The position numbers and the translations under genes were made by a program. A stretch of DNA of 64,000 nucleotides from Chloroflexota bacterium (GTDB lineage Bacteria; Chloroflexota; JAJPGV01). Positions 6,113 through 63,172 of this stretch are shown piece by piece. Numbering within the stretch: the stretch's first letter is position 1; the number at the start of each line of letters is the position of its first letter. The stretch covers positions 124,001-188,000 of the forward strand of contig JAJPGV010000016.1 in assembly GCA_021325635.1 (NCBI GenBank), in the 5' to 3' direction. Below the pieces are notes generated by a model. The model saw nothing but the letters and a program-made list of their open reading frames with translations. It did no database searches and was not told the origin of the DNA.

Positions 6113-7315
6113 CTACGAGCCTTTTGGAGCTTCATCCAACGCCTTCGTAATCAATGGCTTCACGTCGGTATCCATGAGCTTGGAGAAGTTCTCGACGCTG
6201 CTCGCGACGTAGTCCACTCCGGGGGTCGGAACGTCCTCCAGGCCGTCTTTGGGAACGTCCATGCGCAGCGACGGGATATTGGTAACCCGCTGCCAGGCCG
6301 TCTGCCCGTCCTTTGAGAGCAGCCAGTTGAGGTACACCTTCGCAGCGTTGGGATGCGGCGGCTGCGTCGGCGCGGAGACGATGCCGCCGCCGTTGCTCAG
6401 GTCGGCCCCCTCCTTCAATTGCGACGTCGGGATGAAGCCCACCGGCAGGCCCTGTGCCGCGGCGTCCCGAAGCTCGCGGCTGTTGATCGCCACGCCCAGC
6501 AGGAAGCGTCCCTGGGCGAGCCAGTCGATCATCTGCCGGGCATCCAGGCTGAGCGTGATGTTGGTCTCGCTGAACAGCCGTTCCACGTACTTGGGCCCCA
6601 GGTCCGGGCGGCGGTACAGGTAGATGATCTGGGGGCCGCCGGGACCAGGCACGCGTACGTCCCGGGCCACGATCTTGCCCTTCCACTTGGGATCCAGCAG
6701 GTTCATGTATGAGGTGATCTGCTTGGGATCAACGAGGTTCTTGTTGTAAGAGATCACCGGCTGCACCTGACCTTGGAAGGCCAGCGTGGTCATCGGCTCG
6801 GCGGCGTCCATCCACCACAGGTGACCGTTCAGCCAGTTGCCGCCGCCGGCTACCTCGGGCAGGACCAGCCACGGCTCCAGGGCGGACAGTCCTCCGGACG
6901 CCTTGAACGCCGTGATGGCCGACGTTCCGGGCCCGACGAACACGTCCGGAATGAGCTTCCCGGCCTGACGTTCCGCCGCGACGCGGGCGATCAGGTCGGT
7001 GTTGGTGGTGAAGTTCGCCTGCAGCTTGATGTCGGGATAGGCTTTCTCGAAGGGCTCGACCAGCGCCGCCCTCCCCTGGTCCCCCGTCGTCGCGGAATAC
7101 AGGGTGACCGTGCCCTCCTTCTTGGCGGCGGCAAGGATCTGCTGCCAGGCCGCGCTGGCCGGCGCTGCCCCAGAACCAGCCACAGAACCCGCCGAACTCG
7201 AGCTGGGCCGCGCCTGAGACTGAGCGCAGGCTGCGAGGGACACCGTCACGACCATGGCAATCAGCGCCTGCCACGCACGGCTGAATCGTCCGCCAACACG
7301 CATTCGATGAGCCAT
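6113..7315 (-). CDS. Extracellular solute-binding lipoprotein (Fe3+-type fold)
   Basis: 400 residues, ATG with AAGGAG nine bases upstream. A basic N-terminus, hydrophobic core and lipobox SLAAC at about residues 26-30 mark a lipoprotein; unlike its two paralogues it lacks a twin arginine. The mature domain shares the blocks VTLYSATTGDQG, LWWMDAAEPMTTLAFQG, LDPKWKGKIVARD and PHPNAAKVYLNWLLS with the proteins at 3.9 and 11.3 kb. It is convergent with the flavin oxidoreductase gene, with only three bases between the stops. No ABC partners are adjacent. The MFS gene follows upstream on the same strand. Confidence 0.85.
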   Translation of the reverse strand: MAHRMRVGGRFSRAWQALIAMVVTVSLAACAQSQARPSSSSAGSVAGSGAAPASAAWQQILAAAKKEGTVTLYSATTGDQGRAALVEPFEKAYPDIKLQANFTTNTDLIARVAAERQAGKLIPDVFVGPGTSAITAFKASGGLSALEPWLVLPEVAGGGNWLNGHLWWMDAAEPMTTLAFQGQVQPVISYNKNLVDPKQITSYMNLLDPKWKGKIVARDVRVPGPGGPQIIYLYRRPDLGPKYVERLFSETNITLSLDARQMIDWLAQGRFLLGVAINSRELRDAAAQGLPVGFIPTSQLKEGADLSNGGGIVSAPTQPPHPNAAKVYLNWLLSKDGQTAWQRVTNIPSLRMDVPKDGLEDVPTPGVDYVASSVENFSKLMDTDVKPLITKALDEAPKGS

Positions 7316-7433
7316 GGCTCAGATCTCCTTCCGTTACCTTCGGGTTGAAGCCGTTGCCTGAGAAGTGCGCTGCTCGGTTGGGCCCCGCCGGACCCAGCGT
7401 TGGGGCGATTCTGGGCCAGGCCGTCGGGCCCTG

Positions 7434-8828
7434 TCAAGCAGCTTCTTGCGTTTCCATCCTTGGCTGCCCAAACGTGGCCGGCCACAGCGCCAGCACGGTA
7501 GCCAGCAGGAAAATGGCCACGATCGACAGTCGCAGCATATCGCCCGCGGCGCCCAGAAGGTGCAGCAGAGCGCCCATCAGCGCGCCGCCCAGCGCGCCGC
7601 CCAGGGTCCGCAAAGTCTGCACCGCGCCGGTAACGGACCCATACTGCTCGCGAGGCGAAGACGCGATGGCCTGGTCCAGCAGCGTGATATAGGCCATGCC
7701 GATGCCAAAGCCGCCAACCGCCCAGCTCACCCCTACCAGGATCACGGGCCACCGGCCGCTGACCACCTGCAGGGCGATGGTGGCGCAGGCGGCGGCCACG
7801 AGCAGGGCGCCCGCGATCACCATCCGCTTGGACCAGCGTCCGCGGCTCCAACCGGCGAGGAAATTGCCACCGGTCCAGGCCAGGCCGCCGGCCGTCAGCA
7901 CCAGCCCGGCGGCTGCGGCCGACTGTCCGCGCAGGGCCTGGAGGAACAGCGGAACGAACACCGCCGCCCCCAGGAAGCTCATGGAGAACAGCAAATTGGC
8001 CTGAAGAATCGACCCCAAACGACCCCGTCCGAGCCAGGCCTGGAGCGGAACCACGGGGACACGCGCCGCCTGCTCCTGCCGCAGGTACAGCGCACCGAGC
8101 ACCAGCCCGGCCAGCAGCAGCGCCAGGCCAGTCGCCCCGGCCGATGGCGCCGCCACCAGCGAGCCGGTGGCCAGCGCCAGCAGCAGCGAGCGGACCACCG
8201 GCACGGCCCTGGTCTTGTCGCCCGGCACCGAGCCGGCGAACCCGAACCAGGCCAGTAAGGCGACCAGCAGGCATACCGGCACGTTGGGAATAAACACCCA
8301 GCGCCAGCCCGCCACTTCGGTGATGCTGCCACCGAGGATAGGACCAACCAGGCTGGCCGAAGCCCAGGCAACGGACAGCAGCGAATACATGCGCAGCCTC
8401 AATCCCTCCGGATAGCCGGCCGCGGCGGAAAAGCACACCACCACTAGCCCACCACCTCCCAGGCCCTGCAGACCGCGCGCGAGGACCACCAGTGGCATGG
8501 AAGGCGCCATCGCGCAGGCCAGCGAACCGCCGGCGAACACCACCAGCGCGATGAGGAACGGCGCGCGCAGCCCTAACCTGTCGCGACCGGCACCGCCCAG
8601 CGACAATCCCACGATCGTGGCCAGCTGAAAGGCCGACGTGATCCAAGCGTAGAACTCAGGCTGGCCGAGCTCCCGGAGGACACTTGGCATCGCCGTGGCC
8701 ACGATGTAGGTATCGAAGGCGCCGACGATGATCCCGGTGAAGGCAGTGATGGACGTCCACGCGTAACCGCCCTGGAACAGGGCCGTCCAGCGGACGTTCG
8801 GCCGATCGGCGAGGCTAACGGCGGTCAA
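7434..8828 (-). CDS. MFS transporter, 14-TMS drug:H+ antiporter-like
   Basis: 464 residues starting at TTG with GAGGA upstream. The chain is almost entirely hydrophobic helices, with about 12-14 membrane segments. The opening ITAFTGIIVGAFDTYIVATA and the loop after helix 2 (GGAGRDRLGLRAP) match the DHA2/EmrB-like branch, and LARGLQGLGGGGLVVV is the usual motif C region. It would move small organic molecules by proton antiport across the inner membrane. In this context it may export or import the substrate or intermediates of the neighbouring catabolic enzymes, but no specificity can be read. It is divergent from the first Rieske oxygenase gene. Confidence 0.88.
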   Translation of the reverse strand: MTAVSLADRPNVRWTALFQGGYAWTSITAFTGIIVGAFDTYIVATAMPSVLRELGQPEFYAWITSAFQLATIVGLSLGGAGRDRLGLRAPFLIALVVFAGGSLACAMAPSMPLVVLARGLQGLGGGGLVVVCFSAAAGYPEGLRLRMYSLLSVAWASASLVGPILGGSITEVAGWRWVFIPNVPVCLLVALLAWFGFAGSVPGDKTRAVPVVRSLLLALATGSLVAAPSAGATGLALLLAGLVLGALYLRQEQAARVPVVPLQAWLGRGRLGSILQANLLFSMSFLGAAVFVPLFLQALRGQSAAAAGLVLTAGGLAWTGGNFLAGWSRGRWSKRMVIAGALLVAAACATIALQVVSGRWPVILVGVSWAVGGFGIGMAYITLLDQAIASSPREQYGSVTGAVQTLRTLGGALGGALMGALLHLLGAAGDMLRLSIVAIFLLATVLALWPATFGQPRMETQEAA

Positions 8829-8991
8829 GCAGGCGTGAGTCCTCCGACGATGGCTTTGCCCTGGACATTCGGCGAGCAGTCTAGCGCACTACGAGCCGCG
8901 ATAGCCGAGGAGGTTTCGGACGAATTTGTATCATCGCTTCGGCTATGGAGCTCAAACCGCGATGGCGGCTGAGCAGCCTGAGGAGTTTGAG

Positions 8992-10272
8992 ATGGGCGCT
9001 TGGAATCGCAGCTACGAACAGCGTGTCGAGCGAGAGCTCGTCGCCGGAAAATCACGCGGCGTGCCGGAGGCTCCTGCCGGCGGCACGCAGGGGCACGACT
9101 CGGGCGGCGGGGCGGGCGGCCGGGACCTCCGTCCGCAGATCCCTCCACTCGGCCTGCGGGAGTACTGGTACGTGGCCCTGCCAGCGTCGAAACTCGGCAA
9201 GAAGCCGCTGTACTGGAAGATGCTCGGCGACGAGATGGTCTTCTTCCGCGACGAGTCCGGAGAGGTCGTAGCCCTGAGCGACGTGTGTCCGCATCGCGGA
9301 GCCAGCCTCAGCGGCGGCAGCTGCTTCTATCGCGGCTTCCTGTCGTGCGCCTATCACGGCGCCACGTTCAATGGTGAGGGAGAGTGCGTGGCCTTCATCT
9401 GCGAGGGGCCGGACTCCAAGGCGGCCGGCCAGCTTCGAGCGCGCACCTACCCCACAAAGACGATTCGCGGCTGGGTGTTCGTGTGGATGGGCCAGGGCGA
9501 GCCCGCGCCGATCGAGGAGGATGTGCCGCCCGAGTTCTTCGAGCAGGACCTCCAGATCCACGGCTCATACACCTACTGGCCCATGAACTGGATGCTGGCC
9601 ATCGAAAATCACAGCGACTCCCACAACGCCTTCTACGTTCATCGCAATTCCATCCAGCAGCTGACTTCCAACAGGGCCGGCCGGAACCGGACTCCGCTGG
9701 CTCCGCATGGCAAGATCGTGAACGGGCGAGGCCTCATCGCCATGCACTCCAACCAGGACTACTACGCCAAGGACGGCAAGGTGCCGTACCAGATGTATTA
9801 CCCGGGAGTGAAGGGCGTCTGGCCGCTGCACCGCTGGCGGCTGCTCTGGATCTGGTTCTTCGACCTCTTTCGCAGAGGCGGCTATGCGCACTTCAAGAAG
9901 TACGAGGAGTGGGGCCTGGGCCATCACCTGCCGTGCATCGTGCGAGCCGGCGGCGGCAGTACGCGCTACGCCGTTCCCGTAGAGGCCAACAAATGCCGCA
10001 TCTTCTACTTCTACACCTCCAGCGCGCGAAGCTGGCTCGGACGCCTGTACGCCAGGATCCGCTTCCGCCTCGTGCGCGAGCCGATGGTCTACCACTTCAG
10101 CGGGCAGGACAACGATGCTGCCACGCCCTGCCGCTACTGGTCGCCGGAATACCTGCTGCCAACCGACGCCCAGGTGGTGCTGCTGCGCAAGCTGGTGGTG
10201 GAGCAGTCTCGTGACGCCCTCCGAAACCGTGAGGTGGACGTCGATACGGTCCGTTTTCGGACGGCAGGATAG
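8992..10272 (+). CDS. Rieske oxygenase alpha subunit
   Basis: 426 residues from the ATG that follows GAGGAG by about seven bases. A longer frame opens at 8926 but lacks a ribosome site. The Rieske [2Fe-2S] motif CPHRG...CAYHG lies at about residues 100-125, and the catalytic mononuclear iron site reads DSHNAFYVH (Asp, His, His). It would hydroxylate an aromatic ring with O2 and electrons from a reductase. There is no beta subunit, ferredoxin or reductase gene nearby, as in the homotrimeric single-component group. The SDR gene 13 bases downstream resembles cis-dihydrodiol dehydrogenases, which suggests dioxygenation. Confidence 0.92.
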   Translation: MGAWNRSYEQRVERELVAGKSRGVPEAPAGGTQGHDSGGGAGGRDLRPQIPPLGLREYWYVALPASKLGKKPLYWKMLGDEMVFFRDESGEVVALSDVCPHRGASLSGGSCFYRGFLSCAYHGATFNGEGECVAFICEGPDSKAAGQLRARTYPTKTIRGWVFVWMGQGEPAPIEEDVPPEFFEQDLQIHGSYTYWPMNWMLAIENHSDSHNAFYVHRNSIQQLTSNRAGRNRTPLAPHGKIVNGRGLIAMHSNQDYYAKDGKVPYQMYYPGVKGVWPLHRWRLLWIWFFDLFRRGGYAHFKKYEEWGLGHHLPCIVRAGGGSTRYAVPVEANKCRIFYFYTSSARSWLGRLYARIRFRLVREPMVYHFSGQDNDAATPCRYWSPEYLLPTDAQVVLLRKLVVEQSRDALRNREVDVDTVRFRTAG

Positions 10273-34168: not shown

Positions 34169-34237
34169 AGGCTTGCGTCCAGTGCAGGTCGGGCCACGAA
34201 GGCAGTCCCGCCGCTGCCAGCTAACGATTTGTGCGAA

Positions 34238-34265
34238 GTTCATGGCCCGTTTATGTCCCATTCAC
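34238..34265 (+). promoter_or_regulatory. Phased hexamer array before dksA/traR-type gene
   Basis: GTTCAT, GTTTAT, ATTCAC with five-base spacers, 51 bases before the start codon. The first two hexamers form a near copy of the (T/G)GTTTA-N5-(T/G)GTTTA box known for PhoP. Confidence 0.7.
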
Positions 34266-34316
34266 CCCAGGGGCAGCATCCTGTAGCAACGAAGAACGGG
34301 GGTGGAGGCAACCACA

Positions 34317-34724
34317 ATGACACACATCGGACCAGCGTTGCTGAAGAAGCTGCGAAGTGAGCTCATGGCCGAGGAAGAACGGCTGCTCGCGGAGATCGCA
34401 TTCGAGAACGAACAGCAGCGGGCCAACGCCACGAACGCAAGCGAGGAGCGCTACTCCAGCCCCGACGACACTGGATCAGAGCTAGCCGAGCACGAGAAAA
34501 TCCTGGCCCTCGAAGGAACGGTCGAGGAGATGCTTCGCGAGGTGCGGCACGCGCTGCACAAGATGGATGCCGGCACGTACGGCAGCTGCGATTCGTGCGG
34601 CAACCCAATCTCGGTCGAACGGCTCGAAGCACGTCCCCAGGCGTCGCTGTGCATCAACTGCCGAGCCGAGCACGAGCGCGCTCACCGGGCAGCCCACTAC
34701 GCGCTCATCGCCGGACGGCGCTAA
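34317..34724 (+). CDS. TraR/DksA-type zinc-finger protein
   Basis: 135 residues from the ATG with GGAGG eight bases upstream. An N-terminal helical part (KKLRSELMAEEERLLAEI, acidic stretch DDTGSELAEHEK) is followed by a coiled-coil hairpin and the C4 zinc finger CDSCGNPI...CINC at about residues 88-112. The GSCDSCGNPISVERLEARP region is typical. DksA-type proteins enter the RNA polymerase secondary channel and shift transcription under starvation with ppGpp; shorter homologues such as this may bind without ppGpp. It has its own phased hexamer promoter and a following terminator, so it is monocistronic. Confidence 0.9.
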   Translation: MTHIGPALLKKLRSELMAEEERLLAEIAFENEQQRANATNASEERYSSPDDTGSELAEHEKILALEGTVEEMLREVRHALHKMDAGTYGSCDSCGNPISVERLEARPQASLCINCRAEHERAHRAAHYALIAGRR

Positions 34725-41660: not shown

Positions 41661-41736
41661 TGCCTGCTGGCTCCTTCCCCTCAACCTGGTGAACTCGAGG
41701 TCTTTGTGCCTCTTGGACCAAGGTACCGAAGGATGG

Positions 41737-41753
41737 GTAAACACGACGTGAAC
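41737..41753 (-). promoter_or_regulatory. Phased hexamer pair before the Hox operon
   Basis: On the minus strand GTTCAC-N5-GTTTAC, close to the ideal box. Weaker in-phase hexamers flank it on both sides (ATTCCG and CTTCGG). It lies 76 bases before the 64-residue protein that leads the operon. Confidence 0.7.
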
Positions 41754-41797
41754 GTGCACGGAATGCCAAGGAAATGTGCGGGTTGGAGGGAACCGGC

Positions 41798-47184: not shown

Positions 47185-47901
47185 TCAGCCGGCGGCGACG
47201 GGCGCAGCCGACGGCGTGAAACGGTAGCCGACACCCGGCTCGGTGCGGAGATACCTCGGATTCGCCGGATCCGGCTCGAGCTTGTGCCGCAAACGGCCCA
47301 TGTACACCCGTAGATATTCCGTATCGTCGCGGTATTCGGCCCCCCACACGTTGGTCAACAGCTGGCGGTGGGTCACAACCACGTCAGGCCGCGTCAACAG
47401 CTCTTCCAGCAGCGAGTACTCGGTTGGTGTCAGCTTCAGCTCAACTCCCTGCCGCGTCACACGACGGTGCTGGAAGTCGACCCTGAAATCTCCCGTATCG
47501 ACCACCTCATGGCGGACCTGCGCCTCGGCCGAGCGCTGTGCTCGGCGCATCACCGCTCTCACCCGAGCCATCAGCTCGCCGATGGCAAACGGCTTGGTCA
47601 GATAGTCGTCCGCGCCGAGGTCCAGCGCTCGGATCTTGTCGCCTTCGTTGCCGCTCGCGGTGAGCATGATGATCGACGTGTCCGAGAAGCTGCGAACGTA
47701 GCTGCACACCTCGAACCCATCCATGCCCGGCAGTCCGATGTCCAGGATGAGCAGGTCCGGCTTGTAGGAGCGCACCAGCTCAACGCCCTCCAATCCGTTT
47801 GAGGCGTCGGCCACGTCGTAGCCCCGAGCCCGAAGGTTCTGTGAAACGAACTTAACGAGGTTCGGCTCGTCGTCAACGATGACCACTTTTGCTATTGACA
47901 T
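47185..47901 (-). CDS. OmpR/PhoB-family response regulator, orphan
   Basis: 238 residues. The receiver domain has the acidic pair Asp10-Asp11, phospho-acceptor Asp54 in LLILDIGLPGMDGFE, the conserved Thr in IIMLTASG and Lys in DYLTKPFAIGEL. The C-terminal winged helix (about 130-232) has TPTEYSLLEELLTRPDVVVT and YLRVYMGRLRHKLEPDP, close to KdpE/PhoB types. No histidine kinase gene is nearby. The upstream region carries the same 11-bp-phased hexamers found before stress and hydrogenase genes, so autoregulation and control of these genes is inferred. Confidence 0.9.
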   Translation of the reverse strand: MSIAKVVIVDDEPNLVKFVSQNLRARGYDVADASNGLEGVELVRSYKPDLLILDIGLPGMDGFEVCSYVRSFSDTSIIMLTASGNEGDKIRALDLGADDYLTKPFAIGELMARVRAVMRRAQRSAEAQVRHEVVDTGDFRVDFQHRRVTRQGVELKLTPTEYSLLEELLTRPDVVVTHRQLLTNVWGAEYRDDTEYLRVYMGRLRHKLEPDPANPRYLRTEPGVGYRFTPSAAPVAAG

Positions 47902-47962
47902 GACTTCTCCGTTCGTGCACGGCTCACATCGACAACGATGCCCTGTCCCACGTTACAAGCCT

Positions 47963-47990
47963 GGGAACTGCGTATAAACATCGGCTAAAG
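47963..47990 (-). promoter_or_regulatory. Phased hexamer array before the response regulator
   Basis: On the minus strand CTTTAG, GTTTAT, GTTCCC with five-base spacers, 61 bases before the response-regulator start. It lies back to back with the array for the tandem Usp gene. Confidence 0.65.
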
Positions 47991-48011: not shown

Positions 48012-48039
48012 GTTTTCGAGAAGTTCACACGGCGTTGAT
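48012..48039 (+). promoter_or_regulatory. Phased hexamer array before tandem Usp
   Basis: GTTTTC, GTTCAC, GTTGAT with five-base spacers. The array ends 91 bases before the Usp start, the longest distance of the set. Confidence 0.68.
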
Positions 48040-48130
48040 AGCCGCGTGAGCCCAGCGGGCCTACCGTGGATGGGGGAAAGGCAGTTCGGCCGTCTCGCCC
48101 GATTTTGGCCAGCAGTTGGAGGTCCCGGCG

Positions 48131-49060
48131 ATGTTCCAGAGAATCTTGGTTCCGCTCGACGGCTCGGCCCTCGCGGAAAAGGCGCTGCCTTACGCGGTCG
48201 AGCTGGCAAAGGCGAGCTCGGGAAGGCTGATGCTGCTCCAGGCGACGGAGATTCACGGCGTTGCCGGGACGATCCCGTCCCTCGCGCAGCAGCAGGCCGT
48301 GGAGCAAGCCGAACGCAACATGGGAGCGGTCGCCGACCGGCTGAGCGACGGCGGCCTGAAGGTCGAGCCGTACGCCTTCCTCGGAGAAGCTGCCGAGGCT
48401 ATCGCCGAGGAGGCGGCGCTTCGCCGTGCAGACGCGATCGTGATGTCCACTCACGGGCGCAGCGGTATTGGCCGCTGGATCTACGGCAGCGTAGCCCAGG
48501 GCGTGCTGCAGCGCTCCAGCGTCCCGGTTCTGCTGGTTCCGGCGTCGTGCCAGACCGCGTGGCTGGGAGAGCAGGAGCGCAGCGTTGTCGTGGCATTGGA
48601 CGGCTCCGACCTGGCCGAACAGGCTCTGCCCGCCGCGACCGAGCTGGCCGGACGGCTCGGGGCAAGCCTGCTGCTGGTGCAGGTGGTGGTTCCCCCCACT
48701 CCATCGGCCTACGGCGGAACGGAGCTCTACCTCGAGGTGGGCCCGGACGAGCTGCTGCAATACGCCCGCGAATACCTGGCGACGGTCGAGCGGCAGCTGC
48801 AGGACAAGGGCCTGCGCATCGACAGCGAAGCCCGGCTCGGCGCGCCGTCCATCACCATTGCTCGGATAGCGTTCGAGCGCAACGCCTGGGCCATCGCCAT
48901 GGCATCGCACGGACGTGGGGGGATCGCGCGCGCCGTCATGGGCAGCGTGGCAAACGGCGTGGTGCACTACTCGCCGGTCCCTGTCCTCGTGACCCGGCCT
49001 CAACAGGCGACTGCGAAGGTGCGTGCCAAGGCGCACCGCCGAGCGCTCGCTTCAATCTGA
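48131..49060 (+). CDS. Tandem universal stress protein
   Basis: 309 residues; ATG eight bases after GGAGG. It contains two Usp domains (about 1-145 and 155-300), each opening with a VxLDGS strand (ILVPLDGSALAEKALP; VVVALDGSDLAEQALP) and each with the ATP-loop pattern STHGRSGIGRWIYGS or ASHGRGGIARAVMGS. Tandem Usps that bind ATP are known in mycobacterial dormancy (Rv2623). It is monocistronic and preceded by phased hexamers. The basic tail KVRAKAHRRALASI is unique among the three Usps here. Confidence 0.92.
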   Translation: MFQRILVPLDGSALAEKALPYAVELAKASSGRLMLLQATEIHGVAGTIPSLAQQQAVEQAERNMGAVADRLSDGGLKVEPYAFLGEAAEAIAEEAALRRADAIVMSTHGRSGIGRWIYGSVAQGVLQRSSVPVLLVPASCQTAWLGEQERSVVVALDGSDLAEQALPAATELAGRLGASLLLVQVVVPPTPSAYGGTELYLEVGPDELLQYAREYLATVERQLQDKGLRIDSEARLGAPSITIARIAFERNAWAIAMASHGRGGIARAVMGSVANGVVHYSPVPVLVTRPQQATAKVRAKAHRRALASI

Positions 49061-49091: not shown

Positions 49092-49119
49092 GTTCACAGG
49101 CCGTTTAGGCCATGTTTAC
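49092..49119 (+). promoter_or_regulatory. Phased hexamer array before the ferritin-like gene
   Basis: GTTCAC, GTTTAG, GTTTAC with exact five-base spacers, 45 bases before the start codon. One of the clearest arrays. It may also drive the downstream membrane-bound hydrogenase genes. Confidence 0.75.
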
Positions 49120-49164
49120 CCGCCGGAGGGCAGCATGGCAGCAGAAACGTAAGGAGGCAAACCG

Positions 49165-49701
49165 ATGGCAACGACGACAGACTCCAGTCCTGTGTTCCTG
49201 GATGCCCTGCTGGCGACGGGAATGCCGACCGAGCTCACAACCAGTGAGCGCAAGTCGGAGATCGAGCAGCTGCTGGACCAGCTGGAGGCGCAGGAAGCCG
49301 AAGAGCGGGAGCTGCTCAAGGAGTACGAACGCGCGGCGGAGACCACCCCGGATAAGGGCGTGCGCTTCTTGATGGGGCTGGTGCTCGAAGACGAGCAGCG
49401 GCATCGCCGGCTGATGGAGCTCATGACCAACGACGTTCGGCAGTCGGTGCTGTGGCTGCACGACCGGCCAGCGCTGCCCTCCGTGGAGGGCTCGGACGAG
49501 CGCCGCGCCGCGCTGCTGGAGCAGACCGAGAAATTCCTGGCAGTCGAGCGCCAGAGCCTGGCCGAGCTGGCCAACCTGCAGCACCGAGTCAGCAAGATCC
49601 ACTCGGGTCTGCTGGAAATCTTGGTGAGCTCGATGGCCGCCGACAACCGCAAGCACGTCGAGATCCTGGAGTACGTCAAGCGACAGCTTTCTAAGTCGTA
49701 A
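49165..49701 (+). CDS. Ferritin-like helical protein
   Basis: 178 residues; ATG eight bases after AAGGAGG. All-helical and charged, with ExxH in LEDEQRHRRLMEL near residues 75-87 and a later DNRKHVEILEYVKRQL. Helix pairs with Glu/His at such spacing suggest a diiron or ferritin-like fold, as in rubrerythrin relatives, but the ligand set is not complete by eye. It has its own phased hexamer array, lies just upstream of the uptake hydrogenase genes, and its last codons are part of a tandem duplication. A role in iron or oxygen protection of the hydrogenase is speculation. Confidence 0.7.
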   Translation: MATTTDSSPVFLDALLATGMPTELTTSERKSEIEQLLDQLEAQEAEERELLKEYERAAETTPDKGVRFLMGLVLEDEQRHRRLMELMTNDVRQSVLWLHDRPALPSVEGSDERRAALLEQTEKFLAVERQSLAELANLQHRVSKIHSGLLEILVSSMAADNRKHVEILEYVKRQLSKS

Positions 49702-49976: not shown

Positions 49977-49992
49977 CCGTAAGGAGTAGATG

Positions 49993-51144
49993 ATGTTCCA
50001 ATTCGATTCCGATCTCCCGTCCGCGCTGGAGCGGCGAGGCATCTCGCGGCGGACCTTCCTGGGCTTTTGCGCCGCGATGACCGCCACGCTGGCCCTACCG
50101 CCGCGGTTCATTCCCCGGGTGCAGGCAGCGCTGGAGGGGGCGGATCGGCCCATCCTCATCTGGCGCGAGTTCCAGGACTGCGCGGGTAACACCGAGTCGC
50201 TGCTGCGCTCCAGCCATCCAGCCATTGCCGACATCGTGCTCGAGCTGTTCTCACTCGAGTACCACGAAACCGTCATGGCAGGGGCTGGCAAGCAGGCCGA
50301 GGCAGCCATGGAGAAGGTCATACAGGAGCAAAAGGGCAAGTACCTGGCAGTGATCGAGGGAGCCATCCCTATGGGCCAGGGTGGCGTCTTCTGCACCGTG
50401 GGCGGACGAACGGCGCTGGACATCGCTCGCCAGGTGTGCTCCAACGCCGCGGCGACGATCGCTGTCGGCGCCTGCGCCTGGGATGGCGGCCTGGTTCGCG
50501 GAGCGCCCAATCCAACGGAGGCGGTGGGCGTTCAGGAGGCCGTGCCAGGCATCAAGGTGGTGAACCTGGGCGGCTGTCCTCACAACGCGGCCAACACCGT
50601 GGCAGTGCTGGTGCACTACCTGACCTTCAAGGAGCTGCCGGCGCTCGATCAGTACGGGCGGCCACTGTTCGCCTACGGCAACATCATCCACGACCAATGC
50701 GAGCGCCGGGCGCACTACGACGCCGGGCGCTTCGTCGAGGAATGGGGGGACGAAGGGCACCGCAAGGGCTGGTGCCTGTACAAGATGGGCTGCAAGGGCC
50801 CGCAGACCAACTACAACTGCCCGCGCGTGGGTTGGAACGACGGCACCAGCTGGCCAGTGAAGTCGGGCCACGGCTGCATCGGCTGTGCCGGACCGCGCTT
50901 CTGGGACACGATGGACCCCTTCTACAACCGTCTGCCCAACGTGCCCGGCTTCGGCGCCGACGTGACGGCGGGCCAGGTTGGGCTCGGCATCACCGCGGCC
51001 ACGGCGCTGGCCTTTGGGGCTCATGGCGTCGCTTCCGCGGTGCGTGCCCAGGTGCGACCCAAAGAGGCCGTAGAGAAGCCCGACGCGAATAAGCTGCCGG
51101 CCGAGACGCCGGCCATCCAGGCCACCGAGGAGAAGCCCGAATGA
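49993..51144 (+). CDS. hyaA: Membrane-bound [NiFe]-hydrogenase small subunit
   Basis: 383 residues from the second of two adjacent ATGs, six bases after AAGGAG. The Tat leader SRRTFLGF is at about residues 18-25, and a C-terminal membrane helix follows (VGLGITAATALAFGAHGVASAV). The distal and medial cluster ligands are present (DQCERRAHYD, GWCLYKMGCKGP, YNCPRV, SGHGCIGCAG), and the overall match is to HyaA/HupS of group 1. The proximal site reads QDCAGNTES: Cys63 is kept but the next cysteine (C-x2-C) is Asn66. GACAWDGG and GGCPHN supply the other two. The product is exported with the large subunit. Confidence 0.93.
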   Translation: MFQFDSDLPSALERRGISRRTFLGFCAAMTATLALPPRFIPRVQAALEGADRPILIWREFQDCAGNTESLLRSSHPAIADIVLELFSLEYHETVMAGAGKQAEAAMEKVIQEQKGKYLAVIEGAIPMGQGGVFCTVGGRTALDIARQVCSNAAATIAVGACAWDGGLVRGAPNPTEAVGVQEAVPGIKVVNLGGCPHNAANTVAVLVHYLTFKELPALDQYGRPLFAYGNIIHDQCERRAHYDAGRFVEEWGDEGHRKGWCLYKMGCKGPQTNYNCPRVGWNDGTSWPVKSGHGCIGCAGPRFWDTMDPFYNRLPNVPGFGADVTAGQVGLGITAATALAFGAHGVASAVRAQVRPKEAVEKPDANKLPAETPAIQATEEKPE

Positions 51145-52853
51145 CCCGCATCGCCATCGACCCGGTCACACGCATCGAGGGCCACCTACGCATCGAGGCG
51201 GAGGTCGACGGCGGAGCCGTAACCGACGCATGGTCCTCGGGAACGATGTTCCGAGGCATCGAGCTCATCCTGCGGCACCGCGATCCACGAGAAGCGTGGA
51301 TCTGGGCGCAGCGTATCTGCGGCGTCTGCACCACGGTCCATGCGCTCGCCTCAGTGCGAGCAGTGGAGAGCGCGCTGGGCATCGAGGTTCCGGACAACGC
51401 CCGCCTGGTGCGCAACCTGATCGGCGGCATCCAGAACGTGCAGGACCACGTGATCCACTTCTACCATCTGCATGCGCTCGACTGGGTCGACGTGACCGGC
51501 GCGTTGAAGGCCGACCCGGCCAAGACCGCGCAGCTGGCTCAGTCGATCTCCGACTGGCCGAGCTCCAGTCCGGCCCACTTCAAGACGGTGCAGGACCGCG
51601 TGAAGGCGCTGGTGGACAGCGGCCAGCTCAGCCTGTTCAGCAGCGGCTACTGGGGCCACCCCGCCTACAAGCTGCCGCCCGAAGCGGACCTCATGGCCGT
51701 GGCGCACTACATCGAGGCGCTGGACTGGCAGCGTGACGTCATCCGCGTGCACGCTATGCTAGGAGGCAAGAATCCTCACCCTCAGACCTACCTGGTGGGC
51801 GGCATGGCCACGTCGATGGACCCCAACGAGCCCGACGCCACCATCAACCTGGAGCGCCTCAGCTTCATCGCCGAGCGCTTCAAGATCGCCAAGGCCTTCG
51901 TCGAGCAGGTGTACGTGCCGGACGTGCTGGCCGTGGCGAGCTTCTACCCGGAATGGTTTGGGCTGGGCGAAGGGCTGGGCAACTTCATGGCCTATGGCGA
52001 CTTCCCCGGGGGAGCCGTGCGCGACGCCAGCAAATACTTCTTCCCCCAGGGCATCGTGCTGAACCGCGACCTGAGCCGGGTGAACCCCTTCGCTCCGGAC
52101 AATGTGAGCGAGTACGTCACCCACTCCTGGTACGACTACGGAACGGGCGACCAGTCCGGCAAGAATCCTTTCCTCGGGGAGACCAACCCCAGGTACAGCG
52201 GACCCAACCCGCCGTTCGAGTTCCTGAACACCGATCAGAAATACTCCTGGCTCAAGGCGCCGCGCTACCAGGATCAGCCGATGGAAGTTGGGCCGCTGGC
52301 GCGTACGCTGGTGGCCTACGCCTCGGGCGTTCCCGCGGTGAAGCAGACGGTGGACGCCGTTCTGGCCCAGCTCAAGGCCCCACCAGCGGCCCTGTTCTCC
52401 ACGCTGGGTCGAGTGGCGGCACGCGCCATCGAGGCCAAGCTGATGGTCAACCAGCTGCAGAGCTGGCTGAACGAGCTTACCGACAACCTGGGTCACGGCA
52501 AGCTGCAGGTGCACGACGGGCGGCTGTGGGATCCGGCCAGCTGGCCCAAGCAGGCCCAGGGCTTCGGCTGGCACGAAGCGCCGCGCGGATCGCTGGGACA
52601 CTGGGTGAAGATCGAGGACCAGAAGATCGACAACTACCAGGCCGTGGTCCCAAGCACCTGGAACGCCGGGCCCCGCGACGCCAAGGGCCAGCGCGGCGCA
52701 TACGAGGCCTCATTGCTGAAGACGCCCATCGCCGACCCCGAACGTCCTCTCGAGATCCTGCGAACGGTGCACTCGTTCGACCCCTGCCTGGCCTGCGCCG
52801 TGCACGTGGTCGACCCACGCAAACGGTCCATCGCCGAAGTGCAGGTGCTGTAG
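51141..52853 (+). CDS. hyaB: Membrane-bound [NiFe]-hydrogenase large subunit
   Basis: 570 residues; ATG overlaps the small-subunit stop (ATGA). L1 motif RICGVCTTVHALASVRA at about residue 54 and L2 FDPCLACAVH at the C-terminus hold the four nickel cysteines; the 15-residue tail VVDPRKRSIAEVQVL is removed by the protease. Long stretches such as HFYHLHALDWVDV, LAQSISDWPSSSP and GYWGHPAYKLPPEA match respiratory uptake enzymes of the Hya/Hup kind. It oxidises H2 at the outer face of the membrane and feeds electrons to the cytochrome b subunit. Confidence 0.94.
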   Translation: MTRIAIDPVTRIEGHLRIEAEVDGGAVTDAWSSGTMFRGIELILRHRDPREAWIWAQRICGVCTTVHALASVRAVESALGIEVPDNARLVRNLIGGIQNVQDHVIHFYHLHALDWVDVTGALKADPAKTAQLAQSISDWPSSSPAHFKTVQDRVKALVDSGQLSLFSSGYWGHPAYKLPPEADLMAVAHYIEALDWQRDVIRVHAMLGGKNPHPQTYLVGGMATSMDPNEPDATINLERLSFIAERFKIAKAFVEQVYVPDVLAVASFYPEWFGLGEGLGNFMAYGDFPGGAVRDASKYFFPQGIVLNRDLSRVNPFAPDNVSEYVTHSWYDYGTGDQSGKNPFLGETNPRYSGPNPPFEFLNTDQKYSWLKAPRYQDQPMEVGPLARTLVAYASGVPAVKQTVDAVLAQLKAPPAALFSTLGRVAARAIEAKLMVNQLQSWLNELTDNLGHGKLQVHDGRLWDPASWPKQAQGFGWHEAPRGSLGHWVKIEDQKIDNYQAVVPSTWNAGPRDAKGQRGAYEASLLKTPIADPERPLEILRTVHSFDPCLACAVHVVDPRKRSIAEVQVL

Positions 52854-52855
52854 CC

Positions 52856-53632
52856 GTGGCTGCCACCATCCGACCGCTGGGGCTGTCGGCCGAGCAGCCC
52901 GCCGAAGATCGGCCGAAGCGTGACGAGCTGGTGCGGGTGTACGTATGGGAGCTTCCCGTGCGCGCCGTGCACTGGCTGATCTTCTTCTCGATGATCGTGC
53001 TCTCGGTCACCGGCTACTACCTGCACAACCCCTTCTTCATCGTGCGAGGCCAGGCCGCCTTCACGCTGGCGACGATGCGCTTCATCCACGAGGTGACCGC
53101 GTTCGTGTTCAGCATGGCCTTCGTGGTCCGCATCTACTGGTTCTTCGTCGGCAACGTCTACGCGCGCTGGAAGGCCTTCGTACCCGTGACCAGGCGACAG
53201 CGCCGGGGCCTGCGCGAGATGCTGAAGTACTACCTGTTCCTGCGCTGGGTGGCGCCGCAGGAGGTCGGACACAACCCGCTGGCGGCAGGCATGTACCTGC
53301 TGGTGTACCTGCTGTTCCTGGTGCAGATCCTGACCGGCTTTGCGCTGTACGAATGGGTGCTGGGAACTGAGCCGCTGCGAACGATGTTCGGCTGGCTGCC
53401 GCGGCTCATCAACATCCAGTACCTGCGCGAAACGCACTACTTCCTGATGTTCATCTCCTTCGCCTTCACCATTCATCACGTGTACAGCGCGCTGCTGGTC
53501 GCGATCGAAGAGGCGAACGGCCTGATGGGCAGCATTTTCAGCGGCCACAAGTTCGTGCCGGCGAAGGTCGTCGAACAGGATGCCGCTGAGATCGAGCAGG
53601 ATGCCGCACCCAACGGAGAGCCCGCAAAGTGA
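52856..53632 (+). CDS. hyaC: Hydrogenase cytochrome b subunit
   Basis: 258 residues from GTG two bases after the large-subunit stop; the frame is open far upstream but only as a shadow. Four to five membrane helices, with heme-ligand histidines in RAVHWLIFF, RFIHEVTAF, ETHYFLMF and TIHHVYSAL, match HyaC/HupC b-type cytochromes, which pass electrons from H2 to quinone. A charged N-terminal tail (about 30 residues) and an acidic C-terminal tail (VEQDAAEIEQDAAPNGEPAK) flank the core. Protease gene hyaD overlaps its stop (GTGA). Confidence 0.92.
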   Translation: MAATIRPLGLSAEQPAEDRPKRDELVRVYVWELPVRAVHWLIFFSMIVLSVTGYYLHNPFFIVRGQAAFTLATMRFIHEVTAFVFSMAFVVRIYWFFVGNVYARWKAFVPVTRRQRRGLREMLKYYLFLRWVAPQEVGHNPLAAGMYLLVYLLFLVQILTGFALYEWVLGTEPLRTMFGWLPRLINIQYLRETHYFLMFISFAFTIHHVYSALLVAIEEANGLMGSIFSGHKFVPAKVVEQDAAEIEQDAAPNGEPAK

Positions 53633-54123
53633 CACGGCCGACGATCGTCCTGGGCCTGGGCAACGTGCTCATGTCCGACGAGGGGCTGGGCATCCACGCC
53701 CTACGCCGGCTGCTGGCCAGTGGCCGGCTCGACCCGGAGGCGCAGGCCATCGACGGTGGAACTATGGGCCTGGAGCTGCTGAGCCTGGCCGCGGGCGCAC
53801 GGCGGCTGCTGGTCATCGACGCCATCGACCTCGATGCGGCACCGGGAGAGCTGCTGCGGGTGGACGGCGAGGCGCTCGCCGCGATGCAGGGCGAGGGCAG
53901 CGCCCACAGCCTGGGTCTGGGCGACCTGCTGCTGGCCATGCGCATGCTGGGCGAGCAGCCCGAGGACGTGGTCGTGCTGGGACTGCAGCCGGATCGGGTC
54001 AGCTTGGGCACCGCAACGTCCGAAGCGGTGGAGCAGGCGCTTCCGATGCTGGTCGAAGCTGCGCTCGAGCAGCTCGATCGGTGGCAGGCAATCGATCGAA
54101 GAGCGGAGGTGCGCCATGCATGA
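53629..54123 (+). CDS. hyaD: Hydrogenase maturation protease HyaD/HupD
   Basis: 164 residues beginning at GTG that overlaps the cytochrome stop. VLGLGNVLMSDEGLGIHAL carries the metal-binding Glu, AIDGGTMGLELLSL the Asp, and later residues the His region (AHSLGLGDLL). This is the classic HupD/HyaD arrangement, which removes the C-terminal peptide from the large subunit after nickel loading. It is a different type from the HoxW-like protease at 36.5 kb, as expected with two hydrogenases. hypA overlaps its end by eight bases. Confidence 0.92.
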   Translation: MTRPTIVLGLGNVLMSDEGLGIHALRRLLASGRLDPEAQAIDGGTMGLELLSLAAGARRLLVIDAIDLDAAPGELLRVDGEALAAMQGEGSAHSLGLGDLLLAMRMLGEQPEDVVVLGLQPDRVSLGTATSEAVEQALPMLVEAALEQLDRWQAIDRRAEVRHA

Positions 54124-54460
54124 GGTCGGCCTGGTGCAGCAGGCTATCGACTCCGCCGTCCGAGCGGCGAAAGACGCCGGAGCCGGCAGCATCGAGCAAC
54201 TCACCTTCGCTATCACGCCGGGCGGCCACGTCACCCCCGAGGTGGTCGAGACCCTGTTCGCGGCACTGAGCGCCGGCACGCCGGCAGCCGGCGCGGCGCT
54301 GGCCTTCGAGCAGCAGCCGGGCACCGTCCGCTGCTGGAGCTGCGGCGAGACGTTCGAGCTATCCGAGGCGGGCTCCGAAGCCTGCCCTTCGTGCGGCAGC
54401 GAATCGCACGATCACCCGCAAGGGCCAGAGCTGGTACTCAGGTACGTGGACGTAGCCTAG
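54116..54460 (+). CDS. hypA: Hydrogenase nickel chaperone HypA
   Basis: 114 residues from the ATG giving MHE, the conserved nickel-binding His2-Glu3 start. The zinc site is made by CWSC (about residue 73) and CPSC (about residue 91). ITPGGHVTPEVVETLF matches the family core. HypA delivers nickel to the large subunit together with HypB. HypB, D, E and F are not in the window, so maturation depends on genes elsewhere. It overlaps hyaD and ends the uptake-hydrogenase operon. Confidence 0.93.
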   Translation: MHEVGLVQQAIDSAVRAAKDAGAGSIEQLTFAITPGGHVTPEVVETLFAALSAGTPAAGAALAFEQQPGTVRCWSCGETFELSEAGSEACPSCGSESHDHPQGPELVLRYVDVA

Positions 54461-55300: not shown

Positions 55301-55328
55301 GTTTATACAGCGTTGATTGCGCGTTCAT
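55301..55328 (+). promoter_or_regulatory. Phased hexamer array before hypC
   Basis: GTTTAT, GTTGAT, GTTCAT with exact five-base spacers, 59 bases before the hypC start. The best three-unit array in the window, in the shared region between the small Cys/His gene and hypC. Confidence 0.78.
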
Positions 55329-55387
55329 GGTGCAGCTAGCACACCGGTTTTACGCTCGACCGAGAAGCTGAGCTAGGGAGTGCGTTC

Positions 55388-55642
55388 ATGTGCCGAGGAG
55401 CCCCCGCGCGGATCGTGCGCATCGAAGGGGAGACGGCGTGGCTGGAAGACCGGACGGAACCGGTGTCCCTCCTTGGTATCCCGGACGCGGCCGTGGGACA
55501 GTACGTCTTCTACCATGCGGGGCTCGCACTGAGCCGGGTGGAGGCGGACGAAGCGCTGGCCATCCAGGCAGCCCTGGCCGAGCTCGACGCCCTGTACCAG
55601 CAGCAAGACCTCGTTGGGGACGTCGAGGAGCGGCGGCAGTGA
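55388..55642 (+). CDS. hypC: Hydrogenase assembly chaperone HypC
   Basis: 84 residues; ATG after TAGGGAG. It opens MCRGAPARIVRI, the conserved Met-Cys-x-Gly-x-Pro start in which Cys2 holds the Fe(CN)2CO precursor with HypD. VGQYVFYHAGLALSRV is the typical second half. One hypC is seen for two hydrogenases. The next gene overlaps its stop by four bases (GTGA). It is transcribed from its own phased hexamer array rather than with hypA, and leads into a NikABC-like transporter. Confidence 0.92.
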   Translation: MCRGAPARIVRIEGETAWLEDRTEPVSLLGIPDAAVGQYVFYHAGLALSRVEADEALAIQAALAELDALYQQQDLVGDVEERRQ

Positions 55643-56376
55643 GCACGCTGGTGGCGAATAGGGGACTGCTGCGGTTCGTGCACTACGCCTTCATGCCCAA
55701 TCAGCTGGGCTACTGCGGGGGCGACGATGCCCGGGCGCTGATGGACTACGCGGCGGCCGGCCAGACCGATGCGGGCCTGGAGCCGATGCTCCGAAAATTC
55801 AGCGGCGCGCTGCCCTACTTGAAGTTGATCGCGCGGACCAACGGGCTCGCGGATCCGTTCGACGAGCGGGTCGTCGAAGCCTACTGGATCGGCAACGAAT
55901 TGCTGGAGCGCGTGGAGATGCGCCAGCTGTACGACGACCTGGTCGCCCGGTTTGCCGGGCATCTGCCACCGCAGGCGCTCAAATGGGTGGCCGGCAAGGC
56001 CCCAGCGGGGGCCCGGCCGCATCACAACTTCCATGTGTTCGACGTCCACAGCCGGGCGGGTGACCGGAGCATGTCCCTGGCCACCATGGACGCCTGCCGC
56101 ATAAGCTGGGGAACCGTAGTCGCGGACCTGGGCGGTGAGGCGCTGGTAGAGCGGCAGCGGCTGGCCCTGGAGGACGGCCGGCTGGCGCTTTCAACGAGCA
56201 TCGTAGAGGCGGCGCGTTACCGACTGGATGGGCGAGGCTTCGCGGGACGGCTGGCCAAGGGCACGCCGGTGTCGCTGCACTGGGGCTGGATATGCGAGGT
56301 GCTGGACGCTGACGAGGTAAGCCGCCTACGCCGTTACACGGCCCAACACCTGGCCCTGGCGAATGAGACGTTATGA
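55639..56376 (+). CDS. Hydrogenase-linked conserved protein (possibly DUF6390)
   Basis: 245 residues from a GTG overlapping the hypC stop. No signal peptide or membrane helix. Distinctive motifs are NQLGYCGGDD near residue 22, KLIARTNGLADPFDERVVEAYWIGNELL in pieces, and PHHNFHVFDVHSR near residue 132, where clustered histidines could bind metal. The final part, GTPVSLHWGWICEVL, is also well ordered. Translational coupling to hypC and placement before a nickel-type transporter point to a hydrogenase maturation or nickel role. I believe it matches DUF6390 but cannot verify this. Confidence 0.68.
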   Translation: MSTLVANRGLLRFVHYAFMPNQLGYCGGDDARALMDYAAAGQTDAGLEPMLRKFSGALPYLKLIARTNGLADPFDERVVEAYWIGNELLERVEMRQLYDDLVARFAGHLPPQALKWVAGKAPAGARPHHNFHVFDVHSRAGDRSMSLATMDACRISWGTVVADLGGEALVERQRLALEDGRLALSTSIVEAARYRLDGRGFAGRLAKGTPVSLHWGWICEVLDADEVSRLRRYTAQHLALANETL

Positions 56377-60537: not shown

Positions 60538-61605
60538 CTACGGCTCGCCGAGTGTGATCCCTATGTCGCGCGCGGTGCGCAGCAGCTGGCCGTCGAGCGG
60601 AACGTGCTTCAGCCTGGCCACAGCCGAAGCGATCGGCACGTCGACGATGCTCGACCGGCGAAGAGCAACCATACGGCCAAAGCCGCCGTGAGCGACCAGG
60701 TGGGCCGCCGCGCTGCCAAAGCGCGTCGCCAGCAGCCGATCGAATGACGATGGGCTGCCGCCGCGCTGCAGATGGCCCAGCACGATGGCGCGCACCTCGT
60801 GGCCGGTGAGTCGAGCTAGACTCGCGGCCACCGTCTCCCCCATGCCCCCCAGCCGCCGCGCGCCCTTGTCGACGTATTCCGCCGCCCCGCCGAGGGGCGC
60901 GGCGCCTTCGGAGACGACCACGATGCTGAACAGCTTGCCGGCGCGGTCACGCTCGTCGATCTTCTGCACCACAGGCAACAGGGAGAAGGGAATCTCGGGG
61001 ATCAGGATCGCGTCCGCCCCACCCGAAATGCCCGCGGCCAGGGCGATCCAACCCACGTCGCGGCCCATCACTTCGACGACCATCACGCGGTGATGGCTCT
61101 CGGCAGTGGTATGCAGCTTGTCGAGCGCCTCCTGCGCAGTCGTCACCGCCGAGTCGAAGCCGAAGGTGAGGTCGGTGTGTCCAATGTCGTTGTCGATCGT
61201 TTTCGGTACGCCGACCACCGGCAGCCCCTGGGCGTGCAGGTCGCGGGCCACCCGCAGCGAGCCGTCGCCGCCGACGACGATGACGCCATCCAGGCCCAGG
61301 CTGGCGACGTTGGCAAACAGCTCGGCCGATCGGTTCACAGCCTCCCCATCCGCCCCCCGACAGTGGTAGGGATCGGTGCGCGAAGTGCCGAGGATGGTGC
61401 CACCGAGCGGCAGCAAACCGCGCATGGCGCCGGGCTCGAGGCAACCTGCCATCACCGGCGTCAACAGTCCTTTGTAGCCATCGCGGATACCCACGATCTC
61501 GAGCCCCAGCTCGCCCGCTCCGGCTTTGAGCACGGCGCGCAGGACGGCGTTGAGGCCGGGGCAATCCCCACCGCTCACGAGAAGCCCCACCCGCCGAACG
61601 CTCAT
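60538..61605 (-). CDS. pfkA: 6-phosphofructokinase
   Basis: 355 residues; ATG with AAGGG just upstream. SGGDCPGLNAVLRA begins the fold, GGDGSLRVARDL is the phosphate-donor loop and PKTIDNDI contains the catalytic Asp. GGDGS (Gly) points to ATP as donor, whereas the Lys in PKTIDND (Gly in E. coli PfkA) is shared with PPi enzymes; actinobacterial ATP-PFKs show this same mix. It phosphorylates fructose 6-phosphate in glycolysis. It is divergent from FMN protein 2, and a phased hexamer array lies between them, oriented toward pfk. Confidence 0.93.
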   Translation of the reverse strand: MSVRRVGLLVSGGDCPGLNAVLRAVLKAGAGELGLEIVGIRDGYKGLLTPVMAGCLEPGAMRGLLPLGGTILGTSRTDPYHCRGADGEAVNRSAELFANVASLGLDGVIVVGGDGSLRVARDLHAQGLPVVGVPKTIDNDIGHTDLTFGFDSAVTTAQEALDKLHTTAESHHRVMVVEVMGRDVGWIALAAGISGGADAILIPEIPFSLLPVVQKIDERDRAGKLFSIVVVSEGAAPLGGAAEYVDKGARRLGGMGETVAASLARLTGHEVRAIVLGHLQRGGSPSSFDRLLATRFGSAAAHLVAHGGFGRMVALRRSSIVDVPIASAVARLKHVPLDGQLLRTARDIGITLGEP

Positions 61606-61646
61606 GTCCCTTGTCTTGACCTTAGGCAGCCGACCATGAAGCCACC

Positions 61647-61674
61647 CCTAACGGCGCACAAACGGCGTGTAAAC
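61647..61674 (-). promoter_or_regulatory. Phased hexamer array between pfk and FMN protein 2
   Basis: On the minus strand GTTTAC, GTTTGT, GTTAGG with five-base spacers, 41 bases before pfk. The same region read on the plus strand (GCACAA-N5-GTGTAA) is a weaker match, 63 bases before FMN protein 2, so control could be bidirectional. Confidence 0.65.
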
Positions 61675-62604: not shown

Positions 62605-62632
62605 CTTTAGCGGCCGTTCAGCCCGCATTTAC
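62605..62632 (+). promoter_or_regulatory. Phased hexamer array before FMN protein 3
   Basis: CTTTAG, GTTCAG, ATTTAC with five-base spacers; a weaker in-phase CGTTAG follows. It ends 63 bases before the start. Confidence 0.65.
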
Positions 62633-62695
62633 GAGTTCGTTAGCCGGCCCTGGATACCTTGAAGGCAACCCAACAAGAGGAGCGAGGTCAGCCGC

Positions 62696-63172
62696 GTGTA
62701 CGAGCTAAGCCGCAAGGGGTGCGAAGCGCTGCTGCAGCGGAACAGCTACGGCCGGCTGGGCTGTTACAGCCCGTCGGAGCAGCAGGTGTACGTCGTTCCC
62801 ATCTCCTACGATTTTCACGACGGGTCGATCTACTTCTCCTCAATCGAGGGCGACAAGATCGAGTATCTGCGCTCCCACCCGAATGGCATCTGTCTGGAAG
62901 TCGACGAGATCGATGACGGCCTCAACTGGATGAGCGTCATCGTGCGGGGCAACTTCGAGGAGCTGAGTGGCGGTGACCGGGCTGTCGAGCGAGCGGCAGC
63001 GCTGCGCCGGGCGGAGAAGGGACCGCTGCGCTATCTCTTCGACCCGGACGTAGCCGACCAGGCAAAGAACACGCTGGTTATCGGCGCCCTGCGCATCAAA
63101 CAGCTGTCCGGCCGGCGGCAGCGCTGGTCGTGGGATCGTTCCCGGTCCTTGCCGCTGTCGCTGCGCGCGTAG
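62696..63172 (+). CDS. Pyridoxamine 5'-phosphate oxidase-like FMN protein 3
   Basis: 158 residues from GTG with GAGGAG upstream. NSYGRLGCYSPSEQQVYVVPIS, HPNGICLEVDEIDDGLNWMSV and the closing GRRQRWSWDRS show the same split-barrel fold as the two proteins before it, with closest similarity to FMN protein 1 in the EVDEIDD and DGSIY segments. It is probably monocistronic, between its own hexamer array and the next Usp promoter. The substrate is unknown. Confidence 0.86.
   Translation: MYELSRKGCEALLQRNSYGRLGCYSPSEQQVYVVPISYDFHDGSIYFSSIEGDKIEYLRSHPNGICLEVDEIDDGLNWMSVIVRGNFEELSGGDRAVERAAALRRAEKGPLRYLFDPDVADQAKNTLVIGALRIKQLSGRRQRWSWDRSRSLPLSLRA

Follow-up and report, generated by a model that had tools for sequence, protein, structure and literature searches.

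Stress and redox genes of this Chloroflexota bacterium lie behind arrays of short direct repeats at an 11-bp pitch, and the locus considered here raises the question of which protein reads them. The window, the whole stretch of 64,000 nucleotides that was analysed, holds one candidate, an orphan and KdpE-like response regulator of the OmpR/PhoB family (47185-47901, minus strand; 238 amino acids), called RR below. The original prediction was that this protein probably regulates the repeat regulon. Our results speak for that prediction, at the level of sequence, through a KdpE-type recognition helix, arrays linked to homologues of RR, the linkage of one homologue to target genes (in genome G240), and a difference between the arrays of the Pho genes and all others. 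Taken as a whole, we consider it likely that RR, which resembles KdpE without being KdpE, activates a genome-wide regulon for anoxia and survival.

RR is a complete response regulator of the OmpR/PhoB family. Its receiver covers residues 6-115 and its winged helix residues 154-228, with the recognition helix TEYLRVYMGRLRHKLE, and both domains were above the Pfam cut-offs (Response_reg, 107.9 bits vs. 30.2; Trans_reg_C, 84.3 bits vs. 26.2). The residues required for phosphorylation (D10, D11, D54, T81, and K103), read from the translation, are all present, in line with the claim of a complete phospho-acceptor site. The Trans_reg_C search bore out that RR is the sole winged-helix response regulator of the window. 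The argument drawn from this uniqueness is nevertheless weak, because the genome encodes about 22 such regulators, and three more OmpR-family loci were found behind arrays: a regulator (L086_6942), a pair of regulators (L052), and a kinase gene followed by a regulator gene (L057). The L052 pair (6590-9108; C50:371.6-374.3 kb) comprises two adjacent winged-helix regulators behind an array, one of which is fused to a short-chain dehydrogenase; the receivers of the pair fell below the Pfam cut-off. Among the neighbours of RR that were read, a CudC/MarR-like regulator, a hypothetical protein, ABC genes, and a divergent gene for a universal stress protein (Usp), no kinase gene was found, which agrees with the earlier statement that no histidine kinase is adjacent.

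The promoter of RR carries the array that had been ascribed to it, CTTTAG-N5-GTTTAT-N5-GTTCCC (47990-47963, minus strand; 3 mismatches in the pattern scan). It is followed by a weak fourth unit, TGTAAC (47957-47952, minus strand), and by a suboptimal -10-like hexamer, CATCGT (47935-47940, minus strand), which is in register, 17 bp from the start of unit 4. That this array is among the weaker ones (score 21.3) and that its -10 element is poor both count against RR as the reader, although a score of 21 was reached by no more than one control site in about 784 kb. The divergent Usp gene, which encodes a tandem Usp of 309 amino acids (48131-49060, plus strand), indeed has an array of its own, GTTTTC/GTTCAC/GTTGAT (48012-48039, plus strand), with the -10 element TACCGT at 48062-48067.

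The strongest array of the window, GTTCAC/GTTTAG/GTTTAC (49092-49119, plus strand; -10 element CAGCAT at 49131-49136), drives a gene for a 178-aa protein without a Pfam match (49165-49701, plus strand), which lies directly before the [NiFe] hydrogenase genes (49990-54460). Together with L056 4882-5421 and L068 4365-4970 this gene forms a paralogous set of about 180-200 amino acids, and each member has its own array. The array GTTTAT/GTTGAT/GTTCAT (55301-55328, plus strand; -10 element TACGCT at 55351-55356) stands before the gene for a HypC/HupF hydrogenase chaperone (55388-55642, plus strand). Directly 3' of hypC, in the same array-driven unit and near the hydrogenase genes, there is a DUF6390 gene (55645-56376), which may have a role in hydrogenase maturation. 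A four-unit array, ATTTGT/GTTCAT/GTTTAT/ATTCAC (34227-34265, plus strand; -10 element CATCCT at 34277-34282), precedes a gene that is TraR/DksA-like by eye (34317-34724), with a Usp gene divergent from it. Other arrays were located before the phosphofructokinase gene 60538-61605 (array at 61642-61674, minus strand; -10 element TAAGGT at 61624-61619) and before the gene 62696-63172 (array at 62605-62637, plus strand; -10 element TACCTT at 62655-62660), the second gene of this kind, similar to the pyridoxamine-oxidase-like gene at 61736. The array at 41732-41764 (minus strand) has an in-register -10 element, TACCTT (41725-41720), yet no gene was called within 260 bp of it; it could act on a small RNA or on a small gene that escaped annotation. 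In all, three GTTYAY units with 5-bp spacers and no more than 3 mismatches were matched 9 times in the window, against 0.12 expected, and none of 100 shuffles reached 9. The in-register hexamer was present at all ten top-scoring array sites of the window, that of RR included.

The arrays are real. Genome-wide, 79 matches were obtained, compared with 6 for the pattern read backwards, and the numbers were 21 and 0 when no more than 2 mismatches were allowed. With a position weight matrix, 60 sites scored 19 bits or more in about 0.78 Mb of stretches picked around pattern hits and regulators, and the reversed control gave 4; the density of sites in these stretches is biased upward, and array counts are therefore quoted genome-wide. 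Although 88% of the scanned DNA was coding, 55 of the 60 strong arrays were intergenic. Most arrays lay 15-120 bp 5' of start codons, as set by a simple gene caller, and were oriented toward them. A hexamer of the form xAnnnT occurred at offset 39 (25 of 62 promoters) or 50 (31 of 62), while the other offsets had about 2 each; after removal of overlaps, one of these two registers was occupied in 51 of the 60 strong arrays. In the three-unit and the four-unit versions alike, the -10 element begins exactly 17 bp after the last unit does. Because the matrix ends at position 33, this register is an independent check on the arrays. The repeats stand where a -35 box would be expected, the class II activation geometry of OmpR/PhoB-family regulators, as at PhoB promoters. 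Considering that the -10 element sits at a fixed 17 bp from the last repeat, the arrays are probably activator sites in place of a -35 box. PhoP of Mycobacterium tuberculosis, a relative, binds three- and fourfold repeats more tightly than twofold ones (PMC4832192). Strong enrichment for the exact consensus on both strands was confined to this genome in phylum-wide counts; the genome G099 had 14 matches, on one strand only. Since this genome is the sole member of its class among those compared, the co-occurrence of regulator and arrays was followed across the phylum.

About 60 strong arrays in the genome mark the promoters of a putative regulon. Several Usps are among the array targets, as are Hsp20, a ribosome hibernation factor, a Lon-like protease, phosphofructokinase, a P-type cation ATPase, and an ADP-forming acyl-CoA synthetase fused to a GNAT domain. 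So are several 4Fe-4S proteins, ferredoxins, HypC, and 2-oxoacid:ferredoxin oxidoreductase; CO dehydrogenase belongs to the array-driven set, behind a ferredoxin gene, and the [NiFe] hydrogenase genes come after the array-driven gene 49165. A release-factor-like protein, pyridoxamine-oxidase-like proteins, and DoxX are further targets. By its content, we infer that the target set serves anoxia or energy limitation together with survival. A family of proteins of about 70 amino acids with a GFDVxxLxFYxWLV-like motif was also observed (L053 16974; L062 9544 and 10900; L086 9805), and at least two of its members are directly behind arrays.

The first line of evidence that points to RR, or to its close kin, as the reader of these sites is its likeness to KdpE, which was its best match in the PDB (4kny/4kfc). 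The helix of RR reads YLRVYMGRLRHKLE and that of KdpE YLRIYMGHLRQKLE, and the wings read RTEPGVGYRF and ITETGIGYRF, respectively. Judged by its residues, the recognition helix of RR is of the KdpE type. KdpE binds the half-sites TTTATA and TTTACA, which are separated by a 5-bp spacer, and its residues R193, R200, and T215 matter (PMC3264566). The DNA-contact residues Y191, R193, R200, and T215 of KdpE are kept in RR (Y, R, R, and T in the alignment), and at the equivalent of KdpE position 198 RR carries Arg rather than His, like PhoB (R201). The kdp promoters of some other genomes carry GTTTACAACGCGTTTAC and similar sequences. Pairs of (G/T)TTTAC at an 11-bp pitch, with no more than one mismatch, were found in the kdp promoters of Massilia, Paraburkholderia, an Oxalobacteraceae genome, and Oscillochloris, and they were not found at four other kdp loci.

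The possibility that RR is a canonical KdpE was rejected. It scored 218 bits with the NCBIfam KdpE model, whose cut-off is 325; no kdp gene is nearby; and in the tree RR and its paralogue form a pair that is separate from KdpE. The KdpE of this genome is C53:36302, in a kdpABC-kdpD-kdpE operon. In this operon (C53:30001-44000; L080) kdpD is apparently split into genes of 393 and 542 amino acids. The genome also has a third regulator with a KdpE-type helix, 64% identical (C17:101.3-102.2 kb; L054 16307-17205), which is apparently broken between the receiver and the output domain.

The second line of evidence comes from the homologues. The nearest homologues of RR among the 301 genomes of the phylum were 54-56% identical. 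Three of them (in G040, G075, and G058) have a kinase of their own, and each of their loci, 50 kb in all, carried one RTTTAY-type pair with an in-register -10 element, while the reversed control gave none. These arrays were found with a looser scorer on longer stretches. They lie beside the regulator-kinase operon in G040 and G075 and before an ABC operon adjoining that operon in G058. Their layout is RTTTAY-N5-RTTTAY-N15-RTTTAY-N5-TTTAY with ATCGGG, and the -10 elements (TACGCT, CATACT, and TAAATT) are at exactly +17. OmpR/PhoB-family regulators bind tandem direct repeats at a pitch of about 10-11 bp, and for RR these arrays point to such binding only indirectly. It counts against RR that these homologues come with their own kinase and control other neighbours and that the layout is 2+2 rather than three to four units. 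Some high-scoring hits in the homologue loci (e.g., L238:3482), which resemble ordinary sigma-70 promoters, were set aside. In G240, the genes for DoxX and a GNAT-acyl-CoA synthetase lie upstream of the RR homologue (55%), on the same strand, and both match array targets of our genome at 58% (L056_5619 and L062_4127, respectively). Directly upstream of these two genes lie the contig's two top-scoring array-like sites, whose scores exceed the shuffled maxima only slightly. In G099, the RR homologue (47%) adjoins DoxX and Usp genes, and a related PAS kinase lies further along the same cluster. The support of this locus for the link between RR and the regulon is weak, because the helix is not of the KdpE type and no clear array was seen there.

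Other readers of the arrays were considered. A 74% paralogue of RR (C32:10735-11430) differs from it very little in the recognition helix (TEYLRVYVGRLRRKIE) and in the wing, and by this resemblance it may bind the same sites. That it is the main reader, and RR a target or a modulator, seems rather improbable to us: its promoter is without an array (best score, -2.4), whereas RR has its own array and an array-bearing divergent Usp gene, and the paralogue gene comes after genes resembling a metal ABC transporter, away from the stress genes. The two proteins may divide the labour between them.

RR might also be a mere target of another array-driven two-component system acting as the master, either the dCache-PAS kinase of L057 with the regulator C57:75124 or the regulator of L086 with its kinase. 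Arrays do stand before both operons (scores 25.4 and 23.6), and both are complete kinase-regulator pairs. The helices of these regulators (ELLHTAVRRLRDKLE and NVLEAFVKQLRHKLE) are not of the KdpE type, however, both proteins fall outside the clade, and a shallow search has turned up no homologue-linked arrays for either of them, which makes this arrangement unlikely.

The Pho boxes of actinobacteria, too, consist of 11-bp repeats. A further candidate reader was the PhoB-type regulator C15:61854, for which the arrays would be Pho boxes and the stress genes part of a large Pho regulon. Related arrays exist on C15 near phoB-phoR-phoU, at phoD, a phosphoesterase gene, and a gene for a solute-binding protein. 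The linkage to phoR, phoU, and pst and the Pho-gene targets, which are absent for RR, fit the role of C15:61854. In these Pho-gene arrays position 4 was never C and position 6 was always C, in a small sample of 10 units. In contrast, position 4 was C in 52 of the 174 units of the stress arrays, and position 6 was not C in 81 of 174 (Fisher P = 0.003 for each comparison with Pho). PhoB is therefore not likely, on this difference in letters, to read the remaining arrays. Moreover, the target list is not of the phosphate-starvation kind, and the PhoB-type helix (RTVDVHVNWLRKKLE) is not of the KdpE type. That PhoB reads all the arrays is thus very unlikely in our judgment. Relatives that keep the arrays while lacking RR would speak against the original prediction, and one apparent case was encountered, G003. 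In this genome (L214-L220), GTTTACC arrays with 3-4 units and an identical -10 register stand before genes for a phosphoesterase and secreted proteins, one of them near pstSCAB-like genes, which lends the Pho explanation some support; they probably mark a Pho regulon whose promoters are built to the same geometry. We did not count it as a refuting case, because its arrays are Pho-type and on or near phosphate genes. Finally, there is hardly any likelihood that RR reads the arrays as a repressor, such as one that keeps polymerase out when oxygen is present: repression is possible for OmpR-family regulators and the arrays overlap the place of the -35 box, but whether a promoter has three units or four, the distance from the last repeat to the -10 element is fixed, in accord with class II activation as at PhoB promoters.

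We therefore return to RR as the activator. In the mechanism that we propose, at least one unlinked kinase would phosphorylate RR, and the phosphorylated protein would assemble head to tail on a row of half-sites, three or four copies of GTTYAY at an 11-bp pitch. Since the last half-site begins 17 bp upstream of the -10 element, RR would stand in for the -35 box and recruit the housekeeping polymerase by class II activation. It would also regulate its own gene and drive the divergent Usp gene. Binding of RR to the arrays, activation rather than repression, an oxygen or redox signal, and the pairing with kinases are all predicted from the sequences.

The likely kinases would be two multi-PAS histidine kinases that are not linked to RR and whose PAS domains resemble those of FixL and DosP. 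The first is an orphan (L059:4046-6343), with no regulator beside it in the region read; it gave several matches to PAS, and two arrays lie upstream of it. In the PDB, FixL (E = 2.7e-19) and DosP come nearest to its PAS2 domain, and the heme-ligand His is aligned. Leu takes the place of the distal Arg of FixL (GIGR), and for this reason the putative heme/O2 sensing by this PAS domain is a lead only. The second orphan PAS kinase (L062:11096-12625) lies beside the Usp/hibernation-factor cluster and matches DosP/FixL at about 3e-15. Both are leads, as candidate sensors for RR suggested by these matches. A more ambitious hypothesis is that a DosR-like dormancy/anoxia regulon of at least 60 promoters arose independently on a KdpE-type regulator, which would polymerise on three to four half-sites strictly phased with the -10 element, while heme-PAS kinases encoded elsewhere, one of which belongs to the regulon, would supply the signal; this we regard as possible and put forward tentatively.

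These results would connect a single regulator with an exact promoter code, in which 11-bp repeats keep a fixed register with the -10 element, and with a survival programme, in a probably uncultured lineage that is alone in its class among the genomes compared. The rule that joins array and -10 element can be used to predict regulons in other genomes, and two candidate oxygen-sensing kinases are named.

Among known systems, KdpE, the K+ regulator of kdpFABC in E. coli and others, shares with RR the fold and a near-identical helix, and its half-site, TTTAYA at an 11-bp pitch, is like the one predicted for RR. Unlike KdpE, RR is an orphan, is not linked to kdp or kdpD, and would act on three to four half-sites in a global stress regulon. 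The Pho boxes of PhoB, PhoP, and RegX3 are likewise 11-bp direct repeats in which the array replaces the -35 box, and PhoP binds cooperatively in tandem, as trimer and tetramer (PMC4832192). In those systems, though, the helix differs, the letters at positions 4 and 6 differ, and the targets are phosphate genes. The content of the regulon resembles that of DosR/DevR and of Streptomyces OsdR: Usps are numerous, heat-shock and redox proteins are present, and the response regulator is encoded near Usp genes. Those systems also have autoregulation and more than one sensor kinase, as is predicted for RR. Usps, small heat-shock proteins, redox proteins, and an array at the regulator's own promoter were all found here, as in a DosR-type dormancy regulon. 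DosR and OsdR are NarL-family regulators. In place of their NarL/LuxR-type output domain RR has Trans_reg_C, and whereas their sites are GC-rich dyads (in the OsdR table, AGGGCCGGTCGGCCCC), here a winged-helix regulator is predicted to read direct 11-bp repeats. The DosR regulon of M. tuberculosis comprises some 50 genes, with Usps, redox proteins, and heat-shock proteins among them (PMC5069765). Our results suggest that the dormancy programme of Usps, hydrogenase, and CO dehydrogenase, best known from mycobacterial DosR, has a counterpart under an unrelated regulator family. As for FixL/FixJ and DosP, the likeness lies in the two orphan kinases whose PAS domains are closest to FixL and DosP, with the ligand His aligned, one kinase being inside the regulon and the other beside a regulon cluster. 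Unlike in FixL/FixJ, the partner would be KdpE-like rather than FixJ, the distal Arg is not conserved, and heme binding is putative.
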